Positions 23,426 to 34,330 of a DNA stretch of 64,000 bases are shown here, piece by piece. Position numbers and translations under genes: made by a program. Within the stretch, counting starts at the first letter, position 1. Each line of letters begins with the position of its first letter. Source of the stretch: Zunongwangia mangrovi (GTDB taxonomy: Bacteria; Bacteroidota; Bacteroidia; Flavobacteriales; Flavobacteriaceae); contig NZ_FOKV01000003.1 in NCBI RefSeq assembly GCF_900112105.1, positions 310,001-374,000 on the forward strand, given 5' to 3'. A model generated the notes under the pieces. It did no database searches. It was given only the letters and a program-made list of their open reading frames with translations, and was not told where the DNA came from.

Positions 23426-24694
23426 ATGGATACTGCATTGGCACAAACATATAAACCGAGTATAGAAGCTGTTAAACAGGCATCTGAAAGAATATCTAAA
23501 GTTGTAGTTCATACTCCCTTAGCCGAATCTTTTACCTATAGTAACAGGTTTGGAGCAAATATTATGCTTAAAAGGGAAGATCTACAACAGGTTCGCTCTT
23601 ACAAAATTCGTGGAGCCTACAATAAGATTTCCAGCTTGCCTAAAGATCAGCTAGAGAAAGGGGTCATTTGTGCCAGTGCGGGAAACCATGCACAAGGAGT
23701 AGCTTTTGCCTGTAATAAATTAAAAGCTAAAGGGGTAATTTATATGCCAAGCACTACACCCAGCCAAAAAGTAGCACAAACTAAAATGTTTGGTGGTGAT
23801 TGGGTAGAGGTTGCTTTAGAAGGTGATACTTTCGATGATTCTTTTAAAAACGCGATGATAAGAGCAGGAGAAGATGACCTTGTTTTTATACATCCTTTTG
23901 ATGATGAAAAAGTGATTGAGGGTCAGGCCACAATTGGATTAGAGATCCTTAAACAATCGGACGAGCCGATAGATTATGTATTTGCTCCTCTTGGAGGTGG
24001 AGGTTTGTTAGCCGGAGTTTCTTCGGTTTTTAAAGAATTATCTCCAAAAACAAAGATTATTGGTATAGAACCTGAAGGAGCACCATCAATGTCTGCTTCT
24101 CTAAAGGAGGGGAAATTGATAGAGCTAGAACATATTGAAAGATTTGTAGATGGCGCTGCAGTCCAAAAAGTTGGAAGTCGAAATTTTGAAATATGTAAGC
24201 AAAATTTAGATCAAATGATCACGATTCCTGAAGGGAAAATATGCCAGACGATCCTAGATCTTTACAATCAGGATGCGATCGTGGTAGAACCTGCCGGAGC
24301 GATGTCAATTTCTGTATTAGATTTTTTTGCTGAAGAAATTAAAGGTAAAAATGTGGTGTGTATCGTTAGCGGAAGCAACAACGATATTACCCGTACCGCT
24401 GAAATTAAAGAAAGAGCTTTACTTTATGCGGGTTTAAAACATTATTTTGTAGTTACTTTTCCGCAAAGAGCAGGTGCTTTAAGGGAGTTTCTTGATGAAG
24501 TTTTAGGGCCTACAGACGATATTACACATTTTGAGTATTCAAAAAAGCACGAAAGAGAAAATGGACCTGCAGTGGTAGGGATCGAGCTAAAAGATAAAGC
24601 CGATTTCGAACCGCTAATAAACAGGATGAAAGAGCGTAATTTTTATGGAAGATATCTCAATGATACACCAGATCTATTTCAGTTTATTATTTAA
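23426..24694 (+). CDS. ilvA: Threonine ammonia-lyase (threonine dehydratase), biosynthetic type
   Basis: PLP enzyme that deaminates threonine to 2-oxobutanoate, the entry to isoleucine. PLP lysine K60 lies in RSYKIRGAYNK; the phosphate loop is GGGGLLAG and the C-terminal part is one ACT-like regulatory domain (about 330-422), so shorter than the two-ACT E. coli enzyme. The frame is open from a TTG at 23423 immediately after ilvC; ATG 23426 is the likelier start. Last ilv gene; no strong terminator follows before the arg promoter. Confidence 0.95.
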   Translation: MDTALAQTYKPSIEAVKQASERISKVVVHTPLAESFTYSNRFGANIMLKREDLQQVRSYKIRGAYNKISSLPKDQLEKGVICASAGNHAQGVAFACNKLKAKGVIYMPSTTPSQKVAQTKMFGGDWVEVALEGDTFDDSFKNAMIRAGEDDLVFIHPFDDEKVIEGQATIGLEILKQSDEPIDYVFAPLGGGGLLAGVSSVFKELSPKTKIIGIEPEGAPSMSASLKEGKLIELEHIERFVDGAAVQKVGSRNFEICKQNLDQMITIPEGKICQTILDLYNQDAIVVEPAGAMSISVLDFFAEEIKGKNVVCIVSGSNNDITRTAEIKERALLYAGLKHYFVVTFPQRAGALREFLDEVLGPTDDITHFEYSKKHERENGPAVVGIELKDKADFEPLINRMKERNFYGRYLNDTPDLFQFII

Positions 24695-24706
24695 TTGAAA
24701 AAAGTC

Positions 24707-24737
24707 TTTGAGAATCCGTTTATAAAATTTACATTTA
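24707..24737 (+). promoter_or_regulatory. Bacteroidota-type promoter of the arginine operon
   Basis: TTTG (24707-24710), exactly 19 bases, then TACATTTA (24730-24737), one mismatch from the TTTG-N19-TAnnTTTG consensus. Transcription would start near 24743, about 105 bases before the leader reading frame and 345 before the first arg gene. Confidence 0.6.
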
Positions 24738-24849
24738 CGTTGTGAATACACTAAGTCAAATAATATTAAGTAATAATCGCTGCCCCTTGCGACGCATGTG
24801 GTAATAATTATATATAAATCTTCTTTTAATATTATTTGAAACTTTTATT

Positions 24850-24993
24850 TTGAAAAAATCTCTGAACATACAACAAATCTTAGAAAACCTTAATGAAGGT
24901 TTACAGGATTGGATTGCCCGTTTTAACAGGCCGTCAACTCCTGCAGTTGTTCTTGTTCCCGTACGCCGTCGCCGCACTCCCCGCCGCACGTAA
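24850..24993 (+). CDS. Candidate arginine leader peptide (47 aa, Arg-rich C terminus)
   Basis: Frame from TTG 24850 to TAA 24991-24993. It begins LKKSLNIQQILENL and ends PVRRRRTPRRT; codons 39-42 are CGC CGT CGC CGC and codons 45-46 CGC CGC, six Arg among the last nine. CGN runs are striking in this AT-rich genome. The frame sits between an arg-type promoter and the arg operon. TTG is the only plausible start in the open stretch (24808 onward). It resembles an amino-acid-sensing leader peptide; a functional small protein is the alternative. Confidence 0.6.
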   Translation: MKKSLNIQQILENLNEGLQDWIARFNRPSTPAVVLVPVRRRRTPRRT

Positions 24994-25066
24994 GTGCGTG
25001 TATATTTTTATGGAACTTAGGTGAGTCCGGTTCCCCTTTCGGTCAGAATTTCAATTTATTTTTTTC
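24973..25066 (+). promoter_or_regulatory. Candidate arg attenuator/antiterminator RNA
   Basis: GTGCG (24994-24998) can pair with CGCAC at either 24985-24989, forming a GUAA tetraloop hairpin over the leader stop and followed by TATATTTTTA, or with CGCAC at 24973-24977 inside the Arg codons. Further on, GGAAC (25012-25016) can pair with GTTCC (25030-25034), or TGA..CCG (25022-25029) with CGGTCA (25040-25045); these two exclude each other. A seven-T run lies at 25059-25065, 23 bases before the first gene. Competing folds next to an Arg-codon run suggest regulation; the exact mechanism is not settled by sequence. Confidence 0.45.
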
Positions 25067-25088
25067 AATCTTAATAATCGTTTAGCAA

Positions 25089-25718
25089 ATGAAAATTGTC
25101 ATTGCTAATAAATCTCATGCAAAATTTGCTGAGATTATCTGTACAACTATAGAAGAATCTGCCAAAATTCGTGGCACAGGAATCGCTCGTCGTACGCCAG
25201 AATATGTGATTACCAAAATGGAAAATGGTAATGCTATTATCGCTTTAGATGGTGAAAAGTTTGCCGGTTTCTGTTACATAGAAACATGGAGTCACGAGAA
25301 GTACGTAGCGAACTCTGGTTTAATTGTACATCCCGATTATAGAAATCAGGGACTGGCTAAAGATATCAAAAAAGCGGTTTTTGATTATTCCAGGAAAAAA
25401 TATCCAAACGCCAAGATCTTTGGGATCACAACAGGCTTAGCCGTAATGAAAATAAATTACGAGTTGGGATATCAACCTGTCACTTTCTCTGAACTTACCG
25501 ACGATGATGCCTTTTGGAAAGGTTGCCAAACCTGTAAAAATTATGATATTTTAACTCGTACCGAGCGTAAAATGTGTTTATGTACAGGTATGCTTTACGA
25601 TCCTGAGAAAAAGAAAAAAGAAAAGAAAAAGCACGACCTTAACGATAAAACTTTTACCCGATTAAAGAATATTAAACAAAGCCTTTTTTATAAAAAGGAA
25701 AAAAATAAACTAGATTAA
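25089..25718 (+). CDS. GNAT acyltransferase, first gene of the arg operon (candidate N-acylglutamate synthase)
   Basis: 209-residue GNAT protein: acyl-CoA loop VHPDYRNQGLAKDIKKAVFD near residues 78-97 and a core beta-alpha fold; the C-terminal third is distinctive, with Cys-rich CQTCKNYDILTRTERKMC and then a Lys-rich tail. It is directly downstream of the Arg-rich leader and 15 bases before argG. No argA or argJ is seen in the window, although all other arginine steps are present. An acyl-CoA:glutamate N-acyltransferase is therefore the obvious candidate role, but this is inference from fold and position. Confidence 0.85.
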   Translation: MKIVIANKSHAKFAEIICTTIEESAKIRGTGIARRTPEYVITKMENGNAIIALDGEKFAGFCYIETWSHEKYVANSGLIVHPDYRNQGLAKDIKKAVFDYSRKKYPNAKIFGITTGLAVMKINYELGYQPVTFSELTDDDAFWKGCQTCKNYDILTRTERKMCLCTGMLYDPEKKKKEKKKHDLNDKTFTRLKNIKQSLFYKKEKNKLD

Positions 25719-25733
25719 AACTTACCAATAAAA

Positions 25734-26915
25734 ATGAAAAAAGTAGTTATTGCCTACAGCGGCGGATTAGACACCTCATATTGTGCAAAATCATTGTCTA
25801 ATGAAGGTTTCGAAGTTCATGCAGTAAGCGTGAATACCGGAGGATTTTCTGAAGAAGAAGTTCAGCATATTGGAGACAATGCGAAAAAGATTGGAGCAAC
25901 CACCTATAAAAATATCGACGCAGTTTCTTCATTTTATAGCAAAGTCGTTAAGTATTTGATCTTTGGTAATGTTTTAAAGAATAATACCTATCCACTTTCG
26001 GTAAGTGCAGAGCGTATCGTACAGGCCATCGAAATTATAAATTATGCCAAGGAGATTGGTGCAAAATATATCGCTCACGGAAGTACCGGTGCTGGTAACG
26101 ATCAGGTAAGGTTCGATATGATCTTTCAGATCATTGCTCCAGAAATTGAAATTATCACTCCAATTAGAGATAAGCAATTAAGCCGACAGGAAGAGATCGA
26201 TTATCTAAAGGCAAACGGAGTAGAAATGAACTGGGAGAAGTCTAAATATTCAGTAAACAAAGGACTTTGGGGAACCAGTGTTGGTGGTGCTGAAACTTTA
26301 ACTTCTCACGAACCTTTGCCAGAATCTGCATTTCCATCACAACTTTCAGAAAAAGAAGTAGGTAAAATTAGTCTTAGTTTTACGAAAGGAGAGCTTACTG
26401 CGATTAACGATAAAGAAGATTCACCAGAAAATAACATTCAGATTCTTGAAGAGATCGCTAAAAAATATGCGATTGGAAGAGATATTCATGTTGGGGATAC
26501 CATTATTGGGATTAAAGGTAGAGTAGGTTTTGAAGCTGCTTCTGCAAGTATCATTATTAAAGCGCATCATTTATTAGAAAAGCATACGCTTAGTAAATGG
26601 CAACTTCAGCATAAAGATTATGTGGCGAACTGGTACGGAACACATTTGCATGAAGGCCAATATTTAGATCCTGTAATGCGTGATTTTGAGGCTTTATTGC
26701 AAAGTTCTCAGGAGCGAGTAACCGGAAAAGTTTTTGTAAGCCTACATCCTTACCGATTTGTTTTAGACGGAATTTCATCTCCATACGATCTTATGAACAG
26801 CAATTTTGGTAATTACGGAGAAGAAAATAAAGCCTGGACAGCTAACGACGCTAAAGGATTTATCAAAATTCTATCAAACGCTGGAAAGATCTACCAGTCG
26901 GTAGAAAATAATTAA
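25734..26915 (+). CDS. argG: Argininosuccinate synthase
   Basis: Joins citrulline and aspartate with ATP. The PP-loop motif AYSGGLDTS is at residues 7-15; SVSAERIVQAIEI and HGSTGAGNDQVRFD follow, the latter being the citrulline/aspartate-binding region. 393 residues, in the usual 390-450 range. Second gene of the arg operon, 15 bases after the GNAT gene and 19 before argC. Confidence 0.96.
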   Translation: MKKVVIAYSGGLDTSYCAKSLSNEGFEVHAVSVNTGGFSEEEVQHIGDNAKKIGATTYKNIDAVSSFYSKVVKYLIFGNVLKNNTYPLSVSAERIVQAIEIINYAKEIGAKYIAHGSTGAGNDQVRFDMIFQIIAPEIEIITPIRDKQLSRQEEIDYLKANGVEMNWEKSKYSVNKGLWGTSVGGAETLTSHEPLPESAFPSQLSEKEVGKISLSFTKGELTAINDKEDSPENNIQILEEIAKKYAIGRDIHVGDTIIGIKGRVGFEAASASIIIKAHHLLEKHTLSKWQLQHKDYVANWYGTHLHEGQYLDPVMRDFEALLQSSQERVTGKVFVSLHPYRFVLDGISSPYDLMNSNFGNYGEENKAWTANDAKGFIKILSNAGKIYQSVENN

Positions 26916-26934
26916 TCACAAAATTAGCAAGAGC

Positions 26935-27897
26935 ATGATCAAAGCAGGAATAATTGGAGGCGCAGGATATACAGCAGGAGAACTGGTTAGAATTTTAACG
27001 TATCACCCGCAAGTTAAACTCGATTTTGTCTATAGTACATCAAGACCAGGAACTCCGGTTTCAGGTGTGCATCAGGATCTTATCGGGGAAATCGATCTAT
27101 TATTTTCAGGAGAAATAAATACTGAAGTTGATGTCGTTTTTCTATGTCTTGGGCATGGAAATTCTGTAAAGTTTTTAGCTGAAAATAAATTTTCTAAAAA
27201 CACGAAAATCGTTGATTTGAGCACTGATTTTAGAATGAATGGTGATCACGATTTTGTATATGGTTTACCTGAATTTAAAAAAGATACGATCAAAACAGCG
27301 AATTTCATCGCAAATCCTGGTTGTTTTGCCACGGCTATAAGTTTGGCGATTCTTCCATTGGCAAAAGCTAAGAAAGTTGAAGACGAATGGCATGTAAATG
27401 CGGTTACCGGAGCCACCGGAGCCGGAGTATCACTTTCAGCAACCACACATTTTACATGGAGAGATAATAATTTTTCAGCTTATAAGTCTTTTGAGCATCA
27501 ACATTTAAATGAAATTGGGCAAAGTTTAAAATGGTTGCAACCTGATTTTGATGCGACCGTAAATTTTATTCCGAATAGAGGAAATTTTTCCCGCGGAATA
27601 CATGCAACTGCTTATACCAAATTTACTGGTAGCCTAGAAGATGCAAAAGCGATCTATATCGAACAATATAAAGACGCGGCTTTCACTTTTGTGACCGAAG
27701 AAAATATTCATCTTAAACAAGTAGTGAATACGAATAAATGTTTGCTGAAATTAGAGAAATTCGGCGATAAATTATTAATCACCAGCGTGATCGATAACTT
27801 GTTAAAAGGAGCGTCTGGACAGGCGGTACAGAATATGAATTTAATTTTTGGTTTGCCAGAAGATTCAGGATTACACCTTAAAGCCAGTTATTTCTAA
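26935..27897 (+). CDS. argC: N-acyl-gamma-glutamyl-phosphate reductase
   Basis: NADPH-dependent reduction of N-acyl-glutamyl phosphate to the semialdehyde. The dinucleotide loop GGAGYTAGELVRIL is at 8-21 and the catalytic cysteine C130 in NPGCFATA. 320 residues. The acyl group may be acetyl or succinyl, as for the other enzymes of this operon. Confidence 0.95.
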   Translation: MIKAGIIGGAGYTAGELVRILTYHPQVKLDFVYSTSRPGTPVSGVHQDLIGEIDLLFSGEINTEVDVVFLCLGHGNSVKFLAENKFSKNTKIVDLSTDFRMNGDHDFVYGLPEFKKDTIKTANFIANPGCFATAISLAILPLAKAKKVEDEWHVNAVTGATGAGVSLSATTHFTWRDNNFSAYKSFEHQHLNEIGQSLKWLQPDFDATVNFIPNRGNFSRGIHATAYTKFTGSLEDAKAIYIEQYKDAAFTFVTEENIHLKQVVNTNKCLLKLEKFGDKLLITSVIDNLLKGASGQAVQNMNLIFGLPEDSGLHLKASYF

Positions 27898-27920
27898 ATC
27901 AAATTTCTAAAACTTAAACC

Positions 27921-28715
27921 ATGAAAATAGCCATTATCGGTGCCGGGAATTTAGGAAAGTCCATCGCAAAAGGACTTATCGTAAACAATGCCTTTACCAC
28001 GCTTTACCTAACCAAAAGGAATACTGAAGCCATAAAATCTTACGAAGAATATTCTAAGGTTACGGTAACTTCAGATAACCAGGAAGCAGTTAAAAATTCA
28101 GATATTTTAATTTTTGCCGTTCAACCCCAGCAATTAGAAAGAATTCTGGAGGAAACTAAAGACCTACTGACTGATAAACACGTACTTATTTCGACAATCA
28201 CAGGTTTCAAAATTGAAAGAATTGAAGCTATTATTGGCGAAGATCAGTTTATAATTCGAGCAATGCCTAATACGGCGATCGCTGTTGGAAAATCGATGAC
28301 GTGTATGTGTTCTAACGAAAAAGGGGAGAAGCGCATCGCTATCGCCGAGGCTATTTTTAATCGTTTAGGAACAAGTATTATCATTAAAGAAAATAAGATG
28401 CAGGCCGCTACAGTAATTTGCGCCAGTGGTATAGCTTTTTGGATGCGTTTAATTAGAGCAACTACTCAGGGAGCGGTTCAACTTGGTTTTGATGCAAAAG
28501 ATGCACAGGAACTGGCGATGAATACCTGTTTAGGAGCTGCGAGTTTACTGGTAGAATCTGGCAAACATCCAGAGGAAGAAATTGATAAAGTAACTACGCC
28601 AAAAGGGTGCACTATCGAAGGTTTGAACGAGATGGAACACAATGGTTTAAGTTCTTCTTTAATTAAAGGTTTACAGGCATCTTTCAAAAAAATAAATAAC
28701 ATTTCAGAACAATAA
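27921..28715 (+). CDS. proC: Pyrroline-5-carboxylate reductase
   Basis: Reduces 1-pyrroline-5-carboxylate to proline. GAGNLGKSIAKGL is the NAD(P) loop (residues 7-19); MPNTAIAVGKSMT and the C-terminal TPKGCTIEGLNEME block are the ProC signature. 264 residues. Its place between argC and argD couples proline and arginine synthesis in one transcript; argD starts two bases after the stop. Confidence 0.94.
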   Translation: MKIAIIGAGNLGKSIAKGLIVNNAFTTLYLTKRNTEAIKSYEEYSKVTVTSDNQEAVKNSDILIFAVQPQQLERILEETKDLLTDKHVLISTITGFKIERIEAIIGEDQFIIRAMPNTAIAVGKSMTCMCSNEKGEKRIAIAEAIFNRLGTSIIIKENKMQAATVICASGIAFWMRLIRATTQGAVQLGFDAKDAQELAMNTCLGAASLLVESGKHPEEEIDKVTTPKGCTIEGLNEMEHNGLSSSLIKGLQASFKKINNISEQ

Positions 28716-28717
28716 AT

Positions 28718-29857
28718 ATGGAGCTTTTCGATGTTTATCCATTATTTGATATCACTCCCGTAAAAGGCGAAGGCGCTTTTGTTTTCGATAACGACGGAAA
28801 AAAATATCTTGATCTTTACGGTGGTCACGCCGTGATTTCTATAGGACATTCGCATCCTGCTTATGTAAATGCGATCTCTAACCAGGTTCGTAATCTTGGT
28901 TTTTATTCTAATTCCATTAAAAATCCGTTGCAGTTAGAATTGGCCGAAAAACTTGGTAAATTATCCGGTTGCGAAGAATATCAGCTGTTTTTATGTAATT
29001 CCGGCGCCGAGGCTAACGAAAATGCGCTAAAAGTAGCCTCTTTTGCAACAGGGAAAGATCGTGTGATCTATTTTGATAATGCTTTCCACGGAAGAACCTC
29101 TGGAGTGGTGGCTGTTACCGATAATGAAAATATTAAAGCACCATTTAATAAAGGTCATAAAATCACCAAAATCGCCTTTAATGATCCTGAAACTTTAGCT
29201 TCGGAATTACAAAAAGGAGATGTTGCTGCCATTATTTTTGAAGTGATTCAGGGAGTTGGTGGTTTAGATGAAGCCACAACCGATTTTTACCAGCAAATTG
29301 AAAAACTGGCCAAAGAAAACGGTGCGATGATCATTGCAGACGAAGTTCAGGCTGGTTATGGTAGAACGGGCGACTTTTTTGCCTTCCAGAAGCATCATAT
29401 TCATCCAGATATCATTTCTATCGCAAAAGGAATGGGAAATGGATTTCCAATAGGTGGTGTTTTGATCGATAAAAATATTGCTCCAAAATATGGAATGTTA
29501 GGAACTACTTTTGGAGGAAATCATTTAGCCTGTGCTGCAGGATTATCGGTATTAAATATTCTTGAAAAAGAAGATTTAATGCAGAATGCTTCAGCGATGT
29601 TCGATTATGTTAAAGAGCAGTCAAAAGAGATTCCGCAGATAAAAAATATAAAAGGTCGTGGATTAATGATTGGTTTAGAATTCGACTTCGAAATCGCTAA
29701 TCTTAGAAAAGATTTGTTGTTTGTGCATCAAATTTTTACCGGATCTGCCGCCAACAAGAATTTACTTAGAATTTTACCACCGCTTAATATCGAGAAAAAG
29801 CATTTTGATGACTTTTTCAAAGCTTTAAAGATCAGTTTAGCAAATTTAAAAGATTAA
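28718..29857 (+). CDS. argD: Acylornithine aminotransferase (class III aminotransferase)
   Basis: PLP enzyme that converts N-acyl-glutamate semialdehyde to N-acyl-ornithine. LYGGHAVISIGHSHP near the N terminus, NSGAEANENALK (PLP phosphate contacts), IADEVQAGYGRTGDFFAF and PLP lysine K237 in IAKGMGNGFPIGG are visible. 379 residues. Position between proC and argF' makes ArgD the likely role; ornithine-oxo-acid aminotransferases are close relatives. Confidence 0.93.
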   Translation: MELFDVYPLFDITPVKGEGAFVFDNDGKKYLDLYGGHAVISIGHSHPAYVNAISNQVRNLGFYSNSIKNPLQLELAEKLGKLSGCEEYQLFLCNSGAEANENALKVASFATGKDRVIYFDNAFHGRTSGVVAVTDNENIKAPFNKGHKITKIAFNDPETLASELQKGDVAAIIFEVIQGVGGLDEATTDFYQQIEKLAKENGAMIIADEVQAGYGRTGDFFAFQKHHIHPDIISIAKGMGNGFPIGGVLIDKNIAPKYGMLGTTFGGNHLACAAGLSVLNILEKEDLMQNASAMFDYVKEQSKEIPQIKNIKGRGLMIGLEFDFEIANLRKDLLFVHQIFTGSAANKNLLRILPPLNIEKKHFDDFFKALKISLANLKD

Positions 29858-29865
29858 AAATATTA

Positions 29866-29949
29866 TGTCATTCCGTGCTCGACACGGAATCTCATCATTG
29901 TAATAAAAAAGTATTCTAATGAGATTCTGAAACAAATACAGAATGACAG
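29866..29949. repeat. Dispersed palindromic repeat between argD and argF'
   Basis: TGTCATTCCGTGCTCGACAC and GGAATCTCATC at the left, AATGAGATTCTGAAAC and CAGAATGACAGG at the right, so the ends are inverted copies of each other. The right half matches bases 18-69. It supplies a false ATG (29943) upstream of the real argF' start. Confidence 0.75.
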
Positions 29950-29972
29950 GAACCAAAAACCAACTAATTTCA

Positions 29973-30920
29973 ATGAGACATTACACAAGTGTTCACGATA
30001 TCGAAAACCTTGATGAATTAATACAGGAAGCCATTCAGCTAAAAAAAGAAAATTCAGCCGCCAATTTAGGTAAAGGAAAAACTTTAGGCTTGTTGTTTTT
30101 TAATTCCAGTTTGCGTACGCGTTTAAGTACAGAAAAAGCTGGCCGACTTTTAGGAATGGAAGTGCTTACGATGAATGTTGGTGCAGATGGTTGGGCATTG
30201 GAATTTGAAGATGGAGCGGTAATGAATTCAGATAAAGCAGAGCATATTAAAGAAGCTGCTGCGGTGTTGTCGCAATATTGTGATGTGATTGGTGTACGGG
30301 CTTTTCCGGGATTAAAAGATAAGGCAAAAGATGAAGAAGAGCAGGTAATTACTGCCTTTACAAAGTTTGCAAGTGTACCGGTGGTGAATTTGGAAAGTTC
30401 TACCGGGCATCCTTTACAAGCTTTAACCGATGCGATTTCGATAACCGAATTAAAGAAAAAAGATAAATTAAAAGTCGTTTTAAGCTGGGCGCCTCATCCT
30501 AAAGCTTTGCCGCAATCTGTACCGAATTCTTTTGCTGAAATGATGCAGAAAATGGATGTGGAATTTTGTGTTGCAAATCCTGAAGGTTACGATCTAAGCG
30601 ATCGCGTTTTAGATGATACTAAAGTGTATCACGATCAGGATGAAGCTTTAAAAGATGCCGATTTTGTTTACGTAAAAAATTGGAGTAGTTATGAGAAATA
30701 CGGAGAAGTTTTATCTACAGATTCAAATTGGACATTTTCGAAGGAAAAATTAGCACTTACTAATGATGCGAAAGTGATGCATTGTTTACCGGTAAGACGA
30801 AATGTGGTAATTGCAGATGAGGTTTTAGATAGTGAAAATTCCGCTGTAATTCATCAGGCTAACAATAGAACTTATGCAGCTCAGGCTGTTTTAAAACGAA
30901 TTCTGGAACAACTGGATTAA
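29973..30920 (+). CDS. argF': N-acylornithine (acetyl- or succinyl-) carbamoyltransferase
   Basis: Carbamoylates N-acyl-ornithine, as in Bacteroides and Xanthomonas, rather than free ornithine. The carbamoyl-phosphate loop is FFNSSLRTRLS (residues 42-52); GHPLQALTD and HCLPVRRN follow. I chose ATG 29973 (315 residues, MRHYTSVHDIENL) over ATG 29943, because the first ten codons of the longer frame come from an intergenic repeat and the shorter start aligns with the Bacteroides enzyme. The residue I align with the specificity position (Pro in the succinyl enzyme, Glu in the acetyl enzyme) is A89, in DKAEH, so the acyl group cannot be called. Confidence 0.93.
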   Translation: MRHYTSVHDIENLDELIQEAIQLKKENSAANLGKGKTLGLLFFNSSLRTRLSTEKAGRLLGMEVLTMNVGADGWALEFEDGAVMNSDKAEHIKEAAAVLSQYCDVIGVRAFPGLKDKAKDEEEQVITAFTKFASVPVVNLESSTGHPLQALTDAISITELKKKDKLKVVLSWAPHPKALPQSVPNSFAEMMQKMDVEFCVANPEGYDLSDRVLDDTKVYHDQDEALKDADFVYVKNWSSYEKYGEVLSTDSNWTFSKEKLALTNDAKVMHCLPVRRNVVIADEVLDSENSAVIHQANNRTYAAQAVLKRILEQLD

Positions 30921-30972
30921 TGCGATGATTTGTTGACGCGTTAATTTAATAATGGCATGATTTGAAAATGAG

Positions 30973-31127
30973 TGTCGCTTCGAGTGATTTTATTGAAGCG
31001 ATAGCGTAATATAAAATTGTATCGAGAAGTCTGACCGAAAAATGAATTTTGAATTTTAAATTCGGTTAATTAAGGGATTGCATAACAAATTTTAAAAGCT
31101 GATCGCTGAAAGCTAACAGCTCATAGC
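30973..31127. repeat. Dispersed repeats between argF' and argB
   Basis: Bases 30973-31032 (TGTCGCTTCGAGTGATTTTA, ATTGAAGCGA, AGCGTAA, TCGAGAAGTCT) are a close copy of 80-138. Bases 31094-31127 (AAGCTGATCGCTGAAAGCTA, then ACAGCTCATAG) belong to the GCTGAAAGC family seen at 156-185 and in 43966-44280. The 235-base gap holds no gene. Confidence 0.75.
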
Positions 31128-31155
31128 CAAACACTAACTACTAATTACGAAATAA

Positions 31156-31929
31156 ATGAAACCACTAAAAGTTGTAAAAATAGGAGGGAAATTGATTGAA
31201 GATTCCGCCAAATTCGATGAATTCCTAGAAGATTTTAAAAACCTGGAAGGACATAAAATTCTGGTGCATGGTGGTGGAAATATGGCAACTCAGATTTCAG
31301 AGAAATTAGGCTACGAAACCAAAATGGTCGATGGCCGCCGAATTACAGACGAGGATACGGTAAAAGTAATTACCATGGTTTATGGCGGATTGATAAATAA
31401 AAATATTGTTGCGAAATTACAATCGATGGATACCAATGCAATTGGGCTTTGCGGCGCCGATGGGCAAAGTATTCTTTCAGTAAAAAGACCGGTTAAAAAA
31501 ATCGATTATGGCTTTGTAGGGGACATCGAAAAAGTGAATTCCCAGTTTATTGGAGCATTGCTAAATGACGGAGTAGTACCCGTTTTTTCAGCAATTTCAT
31601 GTACAAAAGAAGGGGTGCTGTTAAATACAAATGCCGATTCGATTGCTTCTGAAATTGCGCGTGCAATGAGCAAATCTTATGAAACCGAGCTGTATTACTG
31701 TTTCGAAAAGCAGGGAGTGCTTGCAGATGCTTCAGATGACGAATCGGTCATTAAAGAGATAGATTTTCTTCAGTATAAAACGCTTGTAGAAAAACAGGTC
31801 ATCACTGATGGAATGCTACCTAAACTTCAAAACTGTTTTGAGGCTTTAGAACAGGGTGTACATAAAATTCATCTTGGAAATCACCAATCTTTAAAAGAAA
31901 ATACAACGCATACAAAAATTATTCAGTAA
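31156..31929 (+). CDS. argB: Acylglutamate kinase
   Basis: Phosphorylates N-acyl-glutamate. Amino-acid-kinase fold with VKIGGKLIED near the start, HGGGNMATQ near residue 38 and NTNADSIASEIA near 157. 257 residues, without the N-terminal extension that mediates arginine feedback in some hexameric kinases, so flux control may rest on gene expression. Its last base is the first base of argE. Confidence 0.94.
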   Translation: MKPLKVVKIGGKLIEDSAKFDEFLEDFKNLEGHKILVHGGGNMATQISEKLGYETKMVDGRRITDEDTVKVITMVYGGLINKNIVAKLQSMDTNAIGLCGADGQSILSVKRPVKKIDYGFVGDIEKVNSQFIGALLNDGVVPVFSAISCTKEGVLLNTNADSIASEIARAMSKSYETELYYCFEKQGVLADASDDESVIKEIDFLQYKTLVEKQVITDGMLPKLQNCFEALEQGVHKIHLGNHQSLKENTTHTKIIQ

Positions 31930-32996
31930 TGGAAATTAAAGCACTTCAGCAGGAAGCACTTCAATTACTTCAAAATTTAATAGAAACGCAATCATTTTCT
32001 GGCGAAGAAGATCAAACAGCGCAGTTATTGGAGCAATGGTTTGTTCAGCATAAGATTCCGCATCAAAGACATTTAAATAATGTTTGGGCAACCAATAAAG
32101 CTTTCGATGAGGCAAAACCTACTTTGCTTTTAAACTCGCATCACGATACGGTAAAGCCAAATGCTGCGTACACCAACGATCCTTTCAAAGCGGAATTTCG
32201 CGATGGAAAACTATTTGGATTGGGGAGTAACGATGCCGGTGGTTGTTTGGTTTCATTATTGGCGACTTTTACCTGGTTTTATAATCGTGAAGATCTAAAT
32301 TACAATATCATTTTTGCTGGTACTGCGGAAGAGGAAACCAACGGTAAAAACGGAATTGCCTGTATGTTGCCCATTATGCCAAAAGTAGATGTGGCGATTG
32401 TTGGTGAACCAACGCTGATGGATCTGGCAGTTGCAGAAAAAGGTTTGGTTGTTTTTGATGCGGTGGTAAAAGGAACACCATCACATGCAGCGCATCCTAA
32501 TAATGACAATGCCATCTATAAAACTGCGGAAGTTTTAAAATGGTTTGAAGCGATTAAATTTCCTGAAGTTTCTAAGCAATTAGGCGAAGTGAAATTAACC
32601 GTAACCCAGATTAATGCCGGGACGCAACATAATGTAGTTCCTGCAAAGGTAGATTTGGTGATCGATGTGCGTGTGAACGATTGTTATTCTAATCAGGATA
32701 TTAGTAATTTTTTACAGGAGAATGCTCCAGTAGATAGTATCGAGCCAAGATCGCTACGATTAAATTCATCTAATATTCCCTTAGATCATGATTTAGTGAA
32801 AGCAGGATTAGAATTGGGAATGAAAACTTATGGTTCGCCAACATTGTCTGACCAGGCGATGCTAAAATGTTCTTCGTTAAAGTTAGGGCCTGGAGATAGC
32901 ACAAGATCACATTCTGCAGACGAATTTATTTACGTGAACGAAGTAGAAGAAGGAATAGAAAAATATATTGCCTTGTTAGAAAAGGCGTTAAGATAA
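31929..32996 (+). CDS. argE: M20-family N-acyl-ornithine/citrulline deacylase
   Basis: Zinc peptidase of family M20 that removes the acyl group in the arginine pathway. Metal ligands appear in NSHHDTVKPN and the following Asp in GLGSNDAGG; the catalytic Glu pair is in GTAEEETNGKNG. 355 residues. Overlaps argB by one base. Where the carbamoyltransferase acts on acylated ornithine, the deacylase acts on acyl-citrulline; that is family knowledge applied here. Confidence 0.9.
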   Translation: MEIKALQQEALQLLQNLIETQSFSGEEDQTAQLLEQWFVQHKIPHQRHLNNVWATNKAFDEAKPTLLLNSHHDTVKPNAAYTNDPFKAEFRDGKLFGLGSNDAGGCLVSLLATFTWFYNREDLNYNIIFAGTAEEETNGKNGIACMLPIMPKVDVAIVGEPTLMDLAVAEKGLVVFDAVVKGTPSHAAHPNNDNAIYKTAEVLKWFEAIKFPEVSKQLGEVKLTVTQINAGTQHNVVPAKVDLVIDVRVNDCYSNQDISNFLQENAPVDSIEPRSLRLNSSNIPLDHDLVKAGLELGMKTYGSPTLSDQAMLKCSSLKLGPGDSTRSHSADEFIYVNEVEEGIEKYIALLEKALR

Positions 32997-33004
32997 GATC
33001 AATC

Positions 33005-33038
33005 AAACCTCGCGGGGTTTTAAAACCTCTGAGGTTTA
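33005..33038. repeat. AAACCTC palindromic repeat between argE and argH
   Basis: AAACCTCGCGGGGTTTT followed by AAAACCTCTGAGGTTT; the second half is a perfect palindrome around one T. A diverged copy is at 59038-59068. Intergenic, not followed by a T run long enough for a terminator. Confidence 0.7.
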
Positions 33039-33055
33039 AAAAATAAGACATCATA

Positions 33056-34330
33056 ATGAAACTTTGGGATAAAGGAATAAGCATCGATAAAAAAATTGAA
33101 AAGTTTACGGTTGGTAACGATCGTGAACTGGATATGTATCTTGCTGAATATGATATTACAGCTTCTAAAGCACATGCTAAAATGCTTGGAGAGATCGGGA
33201 TTTTAGAGAAAAATGAAGTGCCGGCTTTATTAACCGAATTAGAGAAACTTCAAAAACAAGTTGAAAACAACGAATTTGTGATCGAGGAAGAATTTGAAGA
33301 TGTACATTCTAAAATCGAATTTGAGCTGACCAAAGTTTTAGGCGATGCAGGTAAGAAAATCCATACAGCAAGATCTCGAAACGATCAGGTTTTGGTAGCG
33401 ATGCAATTATATTTCAAGGAAAATTTAATCGAAATTCGTCAAAAAACAGAAGGATTAATAGACATCCTTTTAGGCCTTGCAGAGCAATACAAAGATAAAT
33501 TGCTTCCCGGTTATACACATTTACAGGTAGCGATGCCATCTTCTTTTGGGTTGTGGTTTTCCGCCTATGCTGAAATTCTTATAGATGATCTTTTTCAGTT
33601 AGATGCCGCTCTAAAAGTAGCCGATCAAAATCCGTTAGGTTCAGCGGCGGGTTATGGTTCATCTTTTCCGATAGATCGTGAATTTACCACAAAAGAATTG
33701 GGCTTTAAAACCTTAAAATACAACTCGGTTGCCGCTCAAATGAGTCGAGGAAAATGTGAGCGTACGGTAACGTCAGCAATTGCTGGATTAGCCAATACAT
33801 TGGCACGTTTTTCAATGGATATTTGCTTGTATATGAGTCAGAATTTCGGTTTTATCAGTTTTCCTGATGAATTAACTACCGGAAGCTCGATCATGCCGCA
33901 TAAAAAGAATCCAGATGTTTTTGAATTAATTCGTGGGAAATCTAATAAACTTCAGGCGATTTCAACAGAAATGGTTTTAATCACTAACAATCTGCCAAGT
34001 GGTTATCATAGGGATTATCAGTTAATCAAAGAAAACAGTATAACTTCCGTAGAAGGAATAAAAGAGATTCTGGATATATTCTCCTATTCAATTTCGCAGA
34101 TCATCGTTAAAGATATCGATCTTAATGACGAGAAATATAAATACCTGTTTACGGTAGATAGTATAAATGACCTGGTAATTGATGGTGCTAGTTTTAGAGA
34201 TGCTTATAAAGAAATAGGAGGGCAGGTTCAAAGTGGAACTTATAAACCGGGAGAAGGCAGAAAACACAGTCATTTGGGAAGCAAGGATAATTTAGCTTTA
34301 GATAAAATTGCAGCCAAGAAAAAGCTTTAA
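33056..34330 (+). CDS. argH: Argininosuccinate lyase
   Basis: Final arginine step: argininosuccinate to arginine and fumarate. The superfamily signature TGSSIMPHKKNPD is near residue 280, with TARSRNDQVLV near 103 and PGYTHLQVAMP near 151. 424 residues, slightly short of the 455-465 usual in Enterobacteria because of a compact C terminus. A frameshifted GNAT gene starts two bases downstream. Confidence 0.96.
   Translation: MKLWDKGISIDKKIEKFTVGNDRELDMYLAEYDITASKAHAKMLGEIGILEKNEVPALLTELEKLQKQVENNEFVIEEEFEDVHSKIEFELTKVLGDAGKKIHTARSRNDQVLVAMQLYFKENLIEIRQKTEGLIDILLGLAEQYKDKLLPGYTHLQVAMPSSFGLWFSAYAEILIDDLFQLDAALKVADQNPLGSAAGYGSSFPIDREFTTKELGFKTLKYNSVAAQMSRGKCERTVTSAIAGLANTLARFSMDICLYMSQNFGFISFPDELTTGSSIMPHKKNPDVFELIRGKSNKLQAISTEMVLITNNLPSGYHRDYQLIKENSITSVEGIKEILDIFSYSISQIIVKDIDLNDEKYKYLFTVDSINDLVIDGASFRDAYKEIGGQVQSGTYKPGEGRKHSHLGSKDNLALDKIAAKKKL

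Follow-up and report, generated by a model that had tools for sequence, protein, structure and literature searches.

A putative arginine-sensing leader with two conserved hairpins in front of the arg operon of Flavobacteriaceae

The arg operon and the gap in front of it

We analysed a 64,000-nt stretch of the Zunongwangia mangrovi genome (the window) that contains an arginine biosynthesis operon. The operon starts with a gene for a GNAT-family acetyltransferase and continues through argH (Table 1), with NCBIfam matches, in operon order, to TIGR00032, TIGR01850, TIGR00112, TIGR00707, NF003384, TIGR00761, TIGR01910 and TIGR00838. The gap between an ilvA-like gene (ending at 24694) and the GNAT gene (25089) holds every feature named in an earlier, sequence-only reading of this DNA. 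The GNAT protein itself has four invariant Cys (146, 149, 163 and 165) and a Lys-rich tail, making a metal-binding or RNA-binding role possible.

Table 1 Features of the arg leader region and operon (P0, P1 and P2, paired RNA elements; uORF, leader reading frame)
Feature	Positions	Strand	Basis
Bacteroidota-type promoter: TTTG (24707-24710), 19 nt, TACATTTA (24730-24737; -7 box, TAnnTTTG-like)	24707..24737	+	Sequence
uORF1, first leader, GTG 24742 to TAA: MNTLSQIILSNNRCPLRRMW, stop	24742..24804	+	4 nt after the -7 box, near-leaderless
P0 5' arm, CAAATAATATTAA, uORF1 codons 6-9 plus one base	24757..24769	+	Perfect complement of 24826-24838
P0 3' arm, TTAATATTATTTG, just before the uORF2 start	24826..24838	+	Kept, with few variants, in 21 aligned relatives
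uORF2, second leader, TTG start: MKKSLNIQQILENLNEGLQDWIARFNRPSTPAVVLVPVRRRRTPRRT, stop	24850..24993	+	Frame and Arg run kept in relatives
Control region CGC CGT CGC CGC ACT CCC CGC CGC ACG, Arg all CGY	24964..24990	+	Codon counts in relatives
P1, CGCAC-GTAA-GTGCG; 5' arm = last Arg codons, stop codon in loop	24985..24998	+	Covariation
U-rich P1-P2 linker, 13 nt	24999..25011	+	Length and composition in relatives
P2, GGAACT-TA-GG-TGAGT-CC-GGTTCC, bulged stem, loop UGNGU	25012..25034	+	Covarying stem, near-invariant top
Unstructured G-poor spacer to the first gene, T7 at 25059-25065	25035..25088	+	Composition and shuffles
GNAT-family acetyltransferase, first operon gene	25089..25718	+	Pfam PF00583, E 1.3e-07
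argG, argC, proC, argD, N-acetylornithine carbamoyltransferase (argF'), argB, argE-like deacylase, argH	25734..34330	+	NCBIfam

The arginine repressor ArgR (PF01316) was absent from all 21 Flavobacteriales searched, namely this genome and 20 relatives, while the same search was positive in Bacteroides and 8 other control genomes. In the open literature we found no described regulator of the arginine pathway in Flavobacteriales and no description of the element reported here; the subscription surveys (Vitreschak 2004; Lopatovskaya 2010) lay outside the scope of that search. Rfam at gathering level returned no match in the 64,000-nt window, and its E-value mode over 24690-25100 gave chance-level matches only, with T-box, riboswitches, Flavo-1 and Bacteroid-trp among the families covered. 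Elsewhere in the genome, AGGTGAGTCC occurs only within a TonB-receptor-like gene.

Across Flavobacteriaceae, the GNAT gene was present in 268 of 397 genomes. For comparison, we took the upstream regions of 113 of the best-scoring GNAT loci and of 80 further organism-named loci, two sets that share some species; the named loci come from Christiangramia, Salinimicrobium, Salegentibacter, Gillisia, Zobellia, Maribacter, Arenibacter, Flagellimonas, Winogradskyella, Leeuwenhoekiella, Robiginitalea, Capnocytophaga and others. Nearly all loci follow a common plan in which an ORF ending in Arg codons is followed by P1, a short linker, P2, ~51 nt and then the GNAT gene. A covariance model built from 68 sequences matched the element in 79 of the 80 named GNAT-arg loci. 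When genomes sampled across the order and phylum were scanned with it, the clear matches fell in Flavobacteriaceae, one per genome. Matches outside the family (L157-L162; E 0.002-0.009) lie in apparent coding sequence without an Arg leader and were set aside as chance.

Leader reading frames and their arginine codons

The promoter and the 47-codon frame on which the sequence-only reading was built were both confirmed, the frame running from TTG 24850 to TAA 24991-24993 and ending PVRRRRTPRRT with six CGN codons among its last nine. Among relatives, the frame and its Arg run are kept. Anchored on the hairpin, the 12 codons upstream of P1 in 97 relatives contained 322 Arg codons in frame, compared with 60 and 31 in the other two frames, and no in-frame stops, compared with 19 and 44. 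Of the in-frame Arg codons, 299 of 322 (93%) were CGY and 4 (1%) AGA; in the coding sequences of the window, AGA and CGY each make up 38% of Arg codons, AGA being the commonest single one. The CGY choice is not explained by P1 pairing, since the counted codons sit outside P1. These counts lie far beyond chance and show that selection maintains the leader ORF as a reading frame carrying a CGY Arg run, and the CGY preference points to a tRNA-Arg that reads CGY as the putative sensed species.

Outside the Arg run, the leader peptide varies freely among relatives. The N-terminal half of uORF2, which had looked conserved, is not: at a locus of the same genus (L005) it differs nearly throughout. A nascent-chain role for this half, raised as a possibility because the half is long for a pure leader, is unlikely, given its lack of conservation and the movement of the stop codon by 12 nt among close relatives. 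In the genus of the window, insertions have made uORF2 longer than the leaders of relatives; within this extended part lies a hairpin, AACCTT-AATG-AAGGTT (24886-24901), and at the matching place related species carry TTTCAG-N-CTGAAA, with a G-C replacement in L015.

Among 41 relatives with a single leader, 5-9 nt (mode 7) separate the end of the TAnnTTTG -7 box from the leader ATG; in 33 of them this ATG lies 24-25 codons before P1. Transcription is expected to start a few bases after the box, so the 5' end of the leader RNA would lie almost at the start codon, and many single leaders appear near-leaderless. The same register fits both TTG 24850 and uORF1, supporting these starts in the window. 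For F. psychrophilum, one study puts leaderless mRNAs at only 5.5% (PMC9723704). Residue 7 of the leader is Ile in 31 of the 41 single leaders, and codon 7 is ATA in 28, usually after TAC, CAC or CAT (for example L029, L045 and L048); the resulting YAYATA looks like a nucleotide-level signal.

The window has a second, upstream Arg-containing ORF that the sequence-only reading did not list, uORF1. About one third of loci (~36 of 109, window included) carry an Arg-rich ORF ending 128-183 nt upstream of P1, and upstream Arg ORFs at any position occurred in 41 of 109 loci compared with 11 on the reverse strand. In the window, the start of uORF2 is preceded by the 3' arm of P0, and the TTGA at that start is invariant in 21 of 21 aligned relatives. 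Native P0 pairing was -10.6 kcal/mol compared with -8.84 for species-swapped 3' elements (sd 0.55; best of 200, -10.23), with 16 loci scored and 9 of 25 not scored, and L163 carries a compensatory change in P0. In genomes with tandem leaders, translation of uORF1 would probably free the uORF2 start, with P0 gating uORF2 initiation.

Two conserved hairpins and a G-poor spacer

The sequence-only reading had proposed that GTGCG (24994-24998) pairs with either of two CGCAC copies, at 24985-24989 and 24973-24977. All three segments are present, and the pairing with the nearer copy is P1, which is conserved and covaries; the upstream CGCAC is not conserved even within the genus, and the competing fold is not supported. 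Across relatives, the arms of P1 switch between CGCCC/GGGTG and CGCAC/GTGCG, with both sides changed in 8 of 68 sequences, and the covariation score was reached by none of 500 shuffles. In the sister-family locus L263, P1 reads CGCCC/GGGCG. AAGGGUG resembles the T-box sequence, but a T-box was dismissed: the Arg codons are the pairing partner of GGGUG, and the Rfam search was negative.

Downstream of P1, the linker measures 11-15 nt in 107 loci and 12-13 nt in 91, and is 56% U and 6% G. It leads to P2, for which 106 loci contained 37 distinct stems; 622 of 636 cells were paired, compared with a mean of 539 (maximum 553) when arms were shuffled. The top of P2 is GGUGNGUCC in 189 of 193 loci and GAUGUGUUC or GAUGAGUUG in two more (191 of 193 in total), and L164 and L224 keep a stem with a different loop. 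In L144, the second upper pair of P2 has gone from G-C to A-U; this change is two-sided and supports the upper stem with its UGNGU loop. In aggregate, the substitution patterns show P1 and P2 to be RNA structures kept by selection.

The sequence-only reading also described a second pair of mutually exclusive stems; the second stem of importance is P2. We found no conserved helix that would exclude it, and pairing of the linker, tried as an alternative to P2, was weak, only ~2 sd better than with swapped linkers. P2 has no U run and does not resemble a terminator; we think that RNA polymerase, the ribosome or a protein docks on it. Complementarity of its loop (AGGUGA-G-UCC) to the 16S 3' end (AGGUGAUCC) is unproven, because at least 28 of 191 loci have U or C in place of the A.

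The spacer that follows is G-poor in relatives (7.3% G compared with 14.6% in 87 control 5' regions), contains T runs of at least 5 in 73 of 107 relatives compared with 15 of 87 controls, and forms less structure than its shuffled versions; it could be a candidate for Rho or ribosome loading. The T7 run cited by the sequence-only reading exists, but no stem adjoins it and the terminator reading of it was rejected.

Upstream of hisG, the same genome carries a classical His leader (L289, ~1290-1450; contig C14), MRTIQLHHHHHIYYCAQAR, near-leaderless, with a -7 box ~8 nt before its ATG. It shows that leader peptides are in use in this genome. Its terminator, AAACCCGTTTGAG-CTA-CTCAAACGGGTTTTTT, has a T6 tail and reaches -17.1 kcal/mol compared with -7.8 kcal/mol for P1, so the genome does use strong attenuator terminators, and none of that kind was seen in the arg leader.

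A proposed arginine sensor and its rivals

Taking the leader frame, its codon choice and the hairpins together, we propose, with a probability of about three in four, that the element is an arginine-sensing leader of the arg operon acting by ribosome stalling on CGY Arg codons. When charged tRNA-Arg (CGY) is scarce, the ribosome would stall on the Arg run and cover the 5' arm of P1, so that P1 would stay open and the operon would be expressed (ON); when arginine is plentiful, the ribosome would finish and leave, P1 would close and expression would drop (OFF). With a ribosome modelled on the Arg codons or at the stop, the probability of P1 fell from 0.75 to 0, whereas P2 was left in place (0.55 to 0.60-0.73). 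Because a ribosome at the stop also covers P1, ON and OFF would have to differ by residence time and not by position alone. Closed P1 could act on transcription, as a weak terminator or pause together with the U-rich linker or by way of Rho on the G-poor spacer, or it could affect translation of the first gene. In either case the leader would do the job of the missing ArgR.

Arg-codon control, the core of the arginine-responsive attenuation suggested by the sequence-only reading, is strongly supported by these comparisons, in which about a hundred flavobacteria retain the frame, the Arg run, the CGY choice, the position and the adjoining hairpin ahead of the arg operon, and by the absence of ArgR; the details of its fold, including the competing CGCAC and the T-run terminator, are not supported. 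Against the sensing model stand the large genus g127, where the first gene is retained with no Arg run before it, the weakness of P1 and the failure to find a conserved antiterminator partner of P2. More tentatively, and at clearly less than even odds, P2 may be a new signal, its UGNGU read by RNA polymerase, ribosome or a protein, through which an Arg stall would exert control without an intrinsic terminator, with a uORF1-P0-uORF2 relay in about one third of genomes.

A classical attenuator as drawn in the sequence-only reading, with P1 or a stem before the T7 serving as intrinsic terminator and alternative CGCAC or P2 pairing serving as antiterminator, draws on the terminator-like score of P1 with its tail in the window (3 sites in the region compared with 0.3 in shuffles, with P1 weak) and on the 61 of 109 relatives that have at least 5 T within 8 nt after P1. 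We nevertheless find it doubtful: compared with the his terminator in this genome, P1 is a short, weak hairpin, and its U tract has interruptions; conservation of the alternative CGCAC is lacking, the T7 has no stem, and P2, the best conserved part, would fall past the end of the terminated transcript. Alternatively, P1-P2 might be a ligand- or protein-binding RNA akin to a riboswitch, the Arg ORF being a by-product of the P1 sequence. A covarying stem with an almost invariant top, as in P2, is typical of recognised RNA, but the excess of Arg codons, confined to a single frame, continues far upstream of P1, and a second Arg ORF without a P2 is present in many genomes, which leaves this the least probable of the explanations, very far from likely.

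Arrest by the nascent chain, with the peptide sensing free arginine in the exit tunnel and stalling the ribosome at or near the stop, has precedents in the fungal arginine attenuator peptide, TnaC and SpeFL. Many leaders end RRRP-stop, Pro before a stop codon slows termination, and the distance to P1 is tight (24-25 codons in 33 of 41), all of which would suit such an arrest. Yet the peptide shows no conservation beyond Arg, with only Ile7 recurring, mostly as the one codon ATA; close relatives place the stop either in the P1 loop or 12 nt downstream; the CGY skew is needless for a peptide-level sensor; and the P1 sequence itself also imposes the final RRP. We consider this arrest improbable and retain stalling on the CGY codons as the preferred reading.

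Similar to trp- and his-type attenuation, the arg leader places a short ORF with a run of end-product codons before a biosynthetic operon and overlaps its control codons with an RNA hairpin, and it shares a near-leaderless start with the his leader of its own genome. It differs from the trp/his type in that no strong terminator was seen, in that the control codons themselves form the 5' arm of P1, and in adding P2, with its invariant top at a fixed distance, and often two tandem leaders. As in pyrBI-type attenuation, ribosome position alone would block the hairpin and no separate antiterminator would be needed; pyrBI responds to UTP and depends on a strong terminator, whereas the signal here would be charged tRNA-Arg. 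The arg leader would work like leader-peptide attenuation, but tests for two features that define the classical type, a strong terminator and an exclusive antiterminator, gave no positive result.

Among described systems, the rbfL uORF of S. aureus is likewise small, and ribosomes pausing at its Arg codons report arginine limitation (PMC13009471). It acts by covering the rbf ribosome-binding site and turns a regulator down (PMC13009471), whereas the arg leader would target a biosynthetic operon, with conserved hairpins in between. Within the same family, leader-peptide attenuation was suspected before amino-acid operons of F. psychrophilum, whose conserved structured 5' elements include pheA and hisG; the main text of that study contains no arginine leader and no P1-P2 element (PMC9723704).

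Present ahead of almost all arg operons examined in the family, such a leader would close the gap left by ArgR, and P1-P2 would add an RNA element absent from Rfam. It also poses the question of how ribosome stalling could switch an operon that has no strong terminator in front of it. The phylum Bacteroidota rarely uses Shine-Dalgarno pairing, and near-leaderless translation would offer such a phylum a way to load ribosomes at once onto attenuator peptides.

In genus g127, where the element and the Arg run are absent, a diverged leader-like ORF lies ~200-330 nt upstream of GNAT (L269, L288 and L149-L151; MNNKRVHITSNSRMNRPVTSPEVRMLLV in L269). It has few Arg codons (CGT, CGG and AGA), relatives of L269 carry a hairpin TACTTC-TCCC-GAAGTA, and the ORF may substitute for the arg leader in that genus. 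Simpler versions occur in other families of the order, where an Arg leader and a P1-like hairpin precede the same gene in f2 (L263 and L270), f3 (L243) and f7 (L281 and L282). Read by eye, the second hairpin of f2 and f7 has UACGU or UCCGU where Flavobacteriaceae have UGNGU, and a UNNGU loop may be the older form of the P2 loop. Family f9 (L273-L276) has a shorter Arg stretch and a hairpin of its own, and in family f15 (L277-L280) an Arg-containing leader is accompanied by a hairpin of a different kind. The f15 peptide is largely conserved (MKQVNxYTPxERPVLTIGIG...RFxREPNRQ), in contrast to the free peptides of the main family, and is a candidate for a nascent-chain effect. At L243, the region ~170-60 nt upstream of GNAT contains the leader MNKTTKHINTLAPRFFRRPLWVLN, P1 and then two mutually exclusive stems, ATGCT-TTATCG-AGCAT and TATCGAGC-N-GCTCGATA followed by T, an arrangement nearer the textbook attenuator.
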